A stretch of DNA of 42,500 nucleotides from Proteobacteria bacterium CG1_02_64_396 (GTDB lineage Bacteria; Pseudomonadota; MNWR01; CG1-02-64-396). Positions 4,839 to 18,798 of this stretch are shown here, one piece after another (position 1 is the stretch's first letter; the number at the start of each line of letters is the position of its first letter). Position numbers and translations under genes: made by a program. The notes beneath the pieces were generated by a model that had not been told where the DNA came from, ran no database searches, and saw only the letters and a list, made by a program, of their open reading frames with translations. The DNA is taken from NCBI GenBank assembly GCA_001872725.1, contig MNWR01000008.1, positions 1 to 42,500 on the forward strand. The letters are read 5' to 3'.

Positions 4839-5090
4839 ATGGTCAAAATCCGTATGGCCCGCGGTGGCTCCAAGAAGCGTCCTTTCTACCGGATCGTCGT
4901 CGCCGACGTGCGTTCGCCTCGCGACGGTCGCTTCATCGAGCAGCTGGGGTTCTACAACCCCGTTGCCACCCCCAAGGCCGTGAAAATCGACTTGGTCAAG
5001 TACGACGCCTGGATTGCCAAGGGTGCGCAAGCCACCGAGACCGTCGCCCGTGTGGCCGGTCAGCTGCGGTCGGGCGGCGAATCTGCCTGA
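4839..5090 (+). CDS. rpsP: 30S ribosomal protein S16
   Basis: The 83-residue protein matches S16 from its first residues ([20 protein letters not shown]) through [14 protein letters not shown]16 binds 16S rRNA in the body of the small subunit and is important for its assembly. The ATG at 4839 is chosen over longer upstream extensions because conserved sequence begins exactly there and AGAGG lies ahead of it. It is the first gene of the rpsP-rimM-trmD-rplS-rnhB cluster, which combines ribosomal proteins with factors that mature the ribosome or tRNA. Confidence 0.97.
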
Positions 5091-5115
5091 TCCCGGGTCT
5101 TTGGCAGTGTGCGAC

Positions 5116-5634
5116 ATGCAGGCCGAGGTGACCGACTGGTTGCAGATCGGCAAGGTCGTCGGTGTCTTCGGGGTCAAGGGGGCGGTCAAGGTGTTTTCCC
5201 TGACCGATCCCCCCGAAAACGCCCTGGCCTATCGCCCCTGGCGCTTGGTCAACGGTCTGCAGACCCGCGAAATCCCAAAGCCGAAGGGCGGCTGGCGCGG
5301 CAAACATCTGGTGGTCGAGATCGACGGGGTGACCACTCCGGAGCAGGCCCATGGCCTGATCGGCTGGCAGATCGAGGTCCCGCGGACCGCCCTTGAGCTG
5401 GACGAAGACGAGTTCCTTCTTTCCGATCTGCCAGGGTGGCGGGTGGTGGATGAAACCGGATACGACTACGGGGTGGTGACCGCCTGGTTTGAAACCCCGG
5501 CCCATTGGCAGATCGTGGTGCTGGGTCAGGCGGGGGAGCAGGTGATCCCCTGGCTCGACGAGGTGGTCCTTCACGCCGATCCCGACCAGCGCCAGCTGGT
5601 GGTGGCCTGGCACCCCCCCGTCGAGGGGGCATGA
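5116..5634 (+). CDS. rimM: 16S rRNA processing factor RimM
   Basis: A protein of about 172 residues with the two beta-barrel domains of RimM: the N-terminal RimM domain starts with [18 protein letters not shown], and a PRC-barrel-like C-terminal half ([16 protein letters not shown]...) follows. RimM binds S19 and helps mature the 3' head domain of 16S rRNA. The exact start is uncertain: ATG 5116, GTG 5107 and TTG 5101 are in frame and none has a strong ribosome binding site; ATG 5116 leaves a normal N-terminus. It overlaps trmD by four bases (ATGA). Confidence 0.93.
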
Positions 5635-17201: not shown

Positions 17202-18149
17202 ATGAGCCAAACGATTCACCACCATGTCCTGATTATCGGTTCCGGTCCCGCCGGGTACACCGCCGCCATTTATGCCGCCCGGGCCAACCTCAAGCCGGGG
17301 ATCGTGGCGGGGATGCAGCCGGGTGGACAGTTGACCATCACCACCGATGTCGAGAACTTCCCCGGTTTCCCCGATGGGATTCAGGGACCCGAATTGATGT
17401 TGATGATGCAGCAGCAGGCCGAACGTTTTGGCACCATCATCCATACCGACATCATCGTCGAGGTCGACTTCTCCAGTCGCCCCTTTAAGGCTATCGGCGA
17501 TAGCGGCGTCGTTTATACCGGCGACGCGGTGATTGTTTGCACCGGCGCCTCGGCTCGGTGGTTGGGTTTGCACGACGAAAAACGTTTGATGGGGTATGGG
17601 GTGTCGGGCTGCGCCACCTGCGACGGTTTCTTCTATCGCGGCGAAGAGATCGCGGTGATCGGTGGCGGCGACACGGCGATGGAGGAGGCCAACTACCTGA
17701 CCAACTTCGCCAGCAAGGTGACTTTGATCCACCGTAGCGAGAACTTCCGCGCCTCCCGTGTGATGTTGGAGCGGACCCGGGCCAATCCGAAGATCGAAAT
17801 CCTGACCAACAAGGTTATTCAGCACATCCTTGGCGAACCCAACCAGGGGGGGGTCCAGGGGTTGGAGCTGAAAGACACCGTCACTGGCGCCATCGAGACC
17901 TTGACCGTCAAGGGGGTCTTCATCGCCATTGGCCACACCCCCAACACCAAGATCTTCAAGGATGTGATCCACCTGGACGATCATGGCTACATCTTGCGCA
18001 AACCCGACTCGACCGCGACCAACATCGAGGGGGTTTTTGCGGCGGGGGACGTGGCCGATGCGATCTACCGCCAGGGTGTGACCGCTGCTGGAATGGGGTG
18101 TATGGCCGCCATCGAGGTGGAGCGCTGGTTGGCGACTCAACGCGGTTAG
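17202..18149 (+). CDS. trxB: Thioredoxin reductase
   Basis: The 315-residue FAD/NADPH enzyme has the FAD fold LIIGSGPAGYTAAIYAAR (residues ~10-27), the redox-active disulfide motif GCATCDGFF (about residues 135-143), NADPH-binding VIGGGDTAMEEA and the FAD-contacting GVFAAGDVAD. It reduces thioredoxin in the cytoplasm. The ATG at 17202 with CGGAG six bases upstream is preferred over ATG 17187. It is the last gene of this run; a short hairpin follows. Confidence 0.97.
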   Translation: MSQTIHHHVLIIGSGPAGYTAAIYAARANLKPGIVAGMQPGGQLTITTDVENFPGFPDGIQGPELMLMMQQQAERFGTIIHTDIIVEVDFSSRPFKAIGDSGVVYTGDAVIVCTGASARWLGLHDEKRLMGYGVSGCATCDGFFYRGEEIAVIGGGDTAMEEANYLTNFASKVTLIHRSENFRASRVMLERTRANPKIEILTNKVIQHILGEPNQGGVQGLELKDTVTGAIETLTVKGVFIAIGHTPNTKIFKDVIHLDDHGYILRKPDSTATNIEGVFAAGDVADAIYRQGVTAAGMGCMAAIEVERWLATQRG

Positions 18150-18323: not shown

Positions 18324-18376
18324 TTGTCCTTCAGCGCTTTGGATGATTAGATGCCACCCGTGCATGGACGCACGGG
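18324..18376 (+). promoter_or_regulatory. Candidate promoter and 5' UTR hairpin of the HU-like gene
   Basis: A -35-like TTGTCC (18324-18329) is followed after 17 bases by TTAGAT (18347-18352), a modest sigma-70 match. Immediately downstream, a perfect 7-bp hairpin CCCGTGC (18357-18363)/GCACGGG (18370-18376) lies in what would be the leader, ahead of AGGAGG at 18401-18406. A start site around 18359 would cut into the first arm, so promoter and hairpin may not both act as drawn. Confidence 0.35.
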
Positions 18377-18411
18377 GCGTCCATCAAACCCAAAGGAATC
18401 AGGAGGGCATC

Positions 18412-18750
18412 ATGAAACGATTTGTGATCGCAGCGGTGCTGGCGTTGGGATGGGCGCAGGGAGCAGGGGCGGTGGGCGAGCAGGAGCTTGCCGGAATGAT
18501 CGCCAAGCAGACCGGAGCCGAGCAGGCCCAGGTGGTGGCGATACTCGGCGCTCTCAAGGGGCAGATCGTCCAGAGCCTCAAGGCGGGTCAGGAGGTTCGC
18601 CTGAACGAGTTCGGCCGGTTCTACCTAAAGCACGTCCCAGCCCATGAGGCAAGAAACCCCAAAACGGGGGCGACGGTTCAGGTTCCCGACCGTGACTACT
18701 TGCGGTTTAAAGCCTTCGATTCGGGTCAGGAGGCGGTTAACGCCGATTGA
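18412..18750 (+). CDS. HU/IHF-fold DNA-binding protein with a signal peptide
   Basis: The 112-residue protein begins with a clear Sec signal peptide: MKRF, a hydrophobic core (VIAAVLALGWA), and AGA-V as a likely cleavage site around residues 20-22. The rest is an HU-type domain: two N-terminal helices (ELAGMIAKQTGAEQAQVVAIL), then VRLNEFGRFYLKHV and the RNPKTGATVQVP arm that in HU inserts in the DNA minor groove. HU itself is cytoplasmic and lacks any leader, so export to the periplasm or beyond is implied. AGGAGG sits six bases before the ATG, fixing the start. Monocistronic, with its own terminator. Function outside the cytoplasm is unknown; extracellular DNA binding or an adhesin-like role are possibilities. 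Confidence 0.85.
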   Translation: MKRFVIAAVLALGWAQGAGAVGEQELAGMIAKQTGAEQAQVVAILGALKGQIVQSLKAGQEVRLNEFGRFYLKHVPAHEARNPKTGATVQVPDRDYLRFKAFDSGQEAVNAD

Positions 18751-18770: not shown

Positions 18771-18798
18771 AAAAGGGGCGCCGTGGCGCCCCTTTTTT
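18771..18798 (+). terminator. Intrinsic terminator after the HU-like gene
   Basis: AAAAGGGGCGCC (18771-18782) is complementary to GGCGCCCCTTTT (18785-18796), followed by further T. It is a strong GC-rich stem with an A-rich 5' and T-rich 3' side, 21 bases after the stop codon. Confidence 0.93.

Follow-up and report, generated by a model that had tools for sequence, protein, structure and literature searches.

The window analysed here, a 42,500-nucleotide stretch of contig MNWR01000008.1 from Proteobacteria bacterium CG1_02_64_396, holds a gene for a putatively exported HU-family protein, and the ORF, coordinates and 112-aa product that a sequence-only reading had given for it are correct. The gene stands alone: trxB ends at 18149, leaving a 262-nt gap, and mraZ begins at about 19008 (gene names by eye). 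The elements of the locus are as follows.

18345-18385, + strand: 5' leader hairpin directly upstream of the Shine-Dalgarno sequence (-20.8 kcal/mol, z -3.3)
18401-18407, + strand: Shine-Dalgarno sequence AGGAGGG for the ATG at 18412 (duplex -12.0 kcal/mol)
18412-18750, + strand: ORF of the putatively exported HU-family protein, 112 aa, stop codon TGA at 18748-18750
18412-18471, + strand: predicted Sec signal peptide MKRFVIAAVLALGWAQGAGA with type I cleavage site AGA/V, called by rule and by homologous leaders in loci L038, L053 and L039
18472-18747, + strand: mature HU domain, 92 residues, with the HU fold and RNPKTG arm; its first codon, GTG, is a possible internal start
18775-18798, + strand: intrinsic terminator GGGGCGCCGTGGCGCCCC-TTTTTT, a hairpin followed by T6 (z -4.9)

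Translation of 18412-18750 (+) gives MKRFVIAAVLALGWAQGAGA/VGEQELAGMIAKQTG...RNPKTGATVQVPDRDYLRFKAFDSGQEAVNAD, the slash marking the predicted cleavage site. Elsewhere in the window, at the contig start (7-2715), HdrB/HdrC-like and geranylgeranyl-reductase-like ORFs were recognized by eye and are suggestive of a heterodisulfide-reductase-like system.

The protein belongs to the HU/IHF (DNABII) fold family but differs from its orthodox members. The complete HU domain with NEFGRF and RNPKTG elements proposed earlier is borne out by Pfam: PF00216 (Bac_DNA_binding) matches residues 24-110 over profile positions 4-90 of 90 (75.4 bits versus a cut-off of 22.4), and both motifs, the latter forming the beta-arm, are present. 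An AlphaFold model built on a 4-row alignment adopts the HU fold (pLDDT 84) with an ill-defined C-terminus (pLDDT 39-56), and its top Foldseek matches are HU/IHF structures, including DNA complexes, with E down to 6e-8. In contrast, none of the NCBIfam equivalog cut-offs for HU-alpha, HU-beta, IHF-alpha or IHF-beta is reached (best 47.5 bits versus 111), and whereas those orthodox proteins have no export signal, the window protein has a predicted Sec signal peptide and homologues with matching leaders, falls in a separate clade and carries no net positive charge. The window genome (2.94 Mb), the sole representative of its class among the genomes compared, encodes three further PF00216 proteins (100-118 bits), all without a leader.

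The hydrophobic leader with a small-residue cleavage site, likewise noted from the sequence, passed a rule with explicit demands on the n-, h- and c-regions, including an AxA cleavage site: cleavage is predicted after residue 20 (AGA/VGEQEL), with a score of 37.2 versus 41.7 for E. coli OmpA. Among control sequences, OmpA, MalE and Lpp pass and E. coli HupB fails; E. coli PhoA was missed, which makes the rule conservative. Counting any start, 9 of the 266 window ORFs of at least 60 aa pass. An upstream in-frame ATG at 18343 was rejected as the start, as it has no Shine-Dalgarno sequence (duplex -1.6 kcal/mol). The internal in-frame GTG at 18472, preceded by a G-rich stretch, has a weaker Shine-Dalgarno duplex (-7.4 kcal/mol) than the leader's ATG.

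Relatives carrying the leader were sought in 399 genomes of the phylum. One family stood out clearly in match strength: two copies in genome G155 (86 and 85 bits; 44-46%) and one in G083 (75 bits, 41%), the next match being a leaderless HU at 58 bits. The G155 contig, WFMN01000165, is named Mariprofundaceae bacterium S009_29 and therefore belongs to the Zetaproteobacteria, and G083 is placed in that class because it shares the family of G155. The search for homologues with leader peptides that the sequence-only reading had suggested thus yielded three proteins in two Zetaproteobacterial genera, each with a predicted Sec leader at the equivalent junction: MNNGLKTVAIAVALMVASGTASA/MGDKELA, MNNGLKTVAIAVALLVASGTASA/MGDKDLA and MKQGLVIASALLLLSSGSASA/MGDKELA. 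These leaders end in ASA at exactly the junction position of the window protein, and all four proteins share the junction A[SG]A/[MV]G[DE][KQ][ED]LA and the C-terminal motif LRFK[AP]F. Gene neighbours differ, with trxB and mraZ in the window and an Rpn-type nuclease ORF or an ABC transporter in the relatives (names by eye). For the G083 copy, the better Shine-Dalgarno sequence, judged by eye, precedes an in-frame ATG further upstream (MGRRMKQG...).

In S009_29 the two copies lie about 2 kb apart (L085:68-433 and 2376-2741), adjoin an ORF resembling an Rpn-family (PD-(D/E)XK) transposase-like nuclease, and each have TTGACA about 75-80 nt upstream. Their mature parts differ by 20 synonymous versus 4 non-synonymous codon changes, pointing to a putatively exported HU that is apparently under purifying selection.

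A start codon lies exactly at mature position +1 in all four leader-bearing proteins (GTG in the window, ATG in the relatives), and in the alignment mature residue 1 of the window protein is the old HU initiator position. The sequence-only reading had named an alternative start removing the leader as a threat to its claim; this objection is weakened, as the internal codons recur in 4/4 but none has a convincing Shine-Dalgarno sequence (-5.2 and -6.4 kcal/mol in the relatives). Since three homologues carry a similar leader at the identical junction, the view that the leader is real, and not the product of a mis-called start, holds at the level of sequence comparison.

A comparison set of 78 HU-type ORFs was drawn from the retrieved loci, and an upstream hydrophobic leader occurs in these four alone (KD9 at least 2.97; next highest 1.86). 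With the leaders removed, their mature domains form one clade (UFBoot 100/SH-aLRT 99 on 64 rows; SH-aLRT 96 in another tree), separate from the window genome's own HU/IHF proteins, although the window protein has a long branch (1.9) and an odd composition in the leader-removed tree. Judged from these alignments and trees, the leader-bearing proteins are a rare, selected subfamily of putatively Sec-exported HU. Because the closest matches of the window genome's Ffh (signal recognition particle protein) do not include Zetaproteobacteria, the gene may be shared with that class either because it was transferred or because it is ancient and has been lost many times.

Other hits lacked the leader. 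The best HU matches were leaderless both in the principal family of the Zetaproteobacteria and in G136's class, which is probably Magnetococcia and was covered by 48 genomes, and a single-protein scan of genome contigs gave no match. Matches in Bipolaricaulota (L086, L087), on a viral contig (L088), on one phage contig and on plasmids (Rhizobium, Xanthomonas and Salmonella by annotation; Cupriavidus and Pseudoalteromonas by sequence) were ordinary leaderless HU where inspected. The Bipolaricaulota proteins (L086:5031-5363 and L087 about 5007-5351) have the arm SNLWTRQ or CNVWTRQ instead of RNPxTG and a C-terminal extension, and HU proteins from the probable Magnetococcia (L026, L106, L107) have Ala/Lys/Pro-rich, histone H1-like C-terminal tails.

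The gene had also been described as independently regulated, with its own promoter candidate, leader hairpin and strong terminator. The hairpin and terminator are both present and, together with the gap after trxB, support this description, but the promoter was not found: a scan covering the sigma70 type only returned 0 sites for the gene. A consensus terminator scanner did not list the terminator at 18775-18798. The hairpin at 18345-18385 consists of two overlapping, mutually exclusive dyads, CCGTGC/GCACGG and ATGGACGC/GCGTCCAT (the second read from the sequence), which could be a candidate translational control element ahead of the Shine-Dalgarno sequence; Rfam found only two tRNAs over the window, and the hairpin matches no Rfam family.

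The window protein is thus very probably an exported HU, a part of the earlier interpretation that stands on the sequence and, above all, on the predicted Sec leader of the relatives at the same junction. With somewhat less assurance, we favor a Sec-exported HU-family protein that acts on DNA outside the cytoplasm. The precursor would be targeted to Sec by its 20-residue signal peptide and cut after AGA by signal peptidase I to leave a complete HU-fold subunit, which would dimerize in the periplasm and bind DNA through its beta-arms. Of the purposes that such binding might serve, we think it likeliest that it would hold or compact DNA being taken up, in the space from the PilQ secretin to ComEC where ComEA usually sits.

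This role in DNA uptake is put forward tentatively, because the window genome has ComEC and PilQ and no detectable ComEA. G083 also has ComEC and PilQ, and neither genome gave a whole-genome ComEA match with two models, HHH_3 and TIGR00426, apart from one sub-threshold HHH_3 match in a 349-aa frame of G083. This gene pattern is compatible with the hypothesis of an exported HU replacing ComEA, but the genomes are few and two do not fit simply: in G155 (94% complete), which has the putatively exported HU, PilQ was found and neither ComEC nor ComEA was, and G115, of the same family but without this HU, has ComEC and PilQ with no ComEA match. G043, of the Zetaproteobacterial class and also without it, has ComEA and PilQ and no PF03772 ComEC match (L091, L095, L100); this single-contig genome, with ComEA and no ComEC match, is the reverse of its class neighbors G083 and G115. 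It is a doubtful, though conceivable, extension that, during natural transformation, the subfamily might receive or compact DNA in the periplasm of ComEC-positive, type IV pilus secretin-positive, ComEA-negative lineages. The proposed role, that of a small exported DNA binder, resembles those of ComEA and ComH, but HU and ComEA are unrelated in fold. Helicobacter pylori ComH sets a precedent for a DNA-binding protein in the periplasm that is not ComEA, and it has been described as present only in H. pylori (PMC10046745).

The mature window protein has a net charge of 0 (pI 6.9), the lowest of the 78 HU-type ORFs, while the Zetaproteobacterial proteins are among the most basic (+11/+12). The neutral charge and weakly predicted C-terminus argue for weaker DNA binding by the window copy and would also suit an exported HU fold that binds a non-DNA ligand such as polysaccharide, LPS or protein. 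Such a ligand is quite improbable, however, as the RNPKTG arm is fully kept in the window protein and recurs in its strongly basic relatives. Alternatively, an exported HU might stabilize extracellular DNA in the matrix of a biofilm or of a sheath, resembling the DNABII proteins of pathogens but with a dedicated export signal. The biofilm DNABII proteins of H. influenzae and others, which are thought to be active outside the cytoplasm, are orthodox HU/IHF that leave the cell in other ways, and they hold extracellular DNA lattices without a known signal peptide (PMC6011942; PMC9413593). The high charge of the Zetaproteobacterial copies is consistent with a matrix role, but the window copy is not basic and a Sec signal leads only to the periplasm, so that crossing the outer membrane would need a further step; we consider this reading unlikely.

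Two further alternatives turn on the start codon. The codon at mature +1 in 4/4 proteins and the G-rich stretch before the window GTG could reflect dual targeting, in which a long ATG form is exported and a short form remains cytoplasmic as ordinary HU. Weak internal Shine-Dalgarno sequences in the relatives speak against this, and the codon may instead simply be left over from the joining of a signal peptide to the front of an HU gene, leaving dual targeting with a low probability. That an ordinary HU begins at the residue right after the leader could even mean that the leader arose by chance as an extra N-terminal stretch on a protein that works in the nucleoid. This is highly improbable: the strongest Shine-Dalgarno sequence belongs to the leader's ATG, and similar leaders with the same junction occur in two other genera and in none of the 74 other HU ORFs. 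Export of an HU able to act on DNA outside the cytoplasm remains the reading we prefer.

The apicoplast-targeted HU of Plasmodium and Toxoplasma also bears an N-terminal targeting signal, but there the signal serves eukaryotic import into a genome-holding plastid, not bacterial export. A literature search that covered only a minority of subscription journals turned up no account of a Sec signal peptide on a bacterial HU. Many biofilms are held together by extracellular HU/IHF, and the way in which these proteins get out of the cell with no leader is still under debate. The gene described here would offer a clean genetic handle through deletion, leader mutation and mutation of the internal start. 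A Sec signal dedicated to an HU that is kept as a clade of its own across separate lineages would show that exporting a histone-like protein can be a selected trait.
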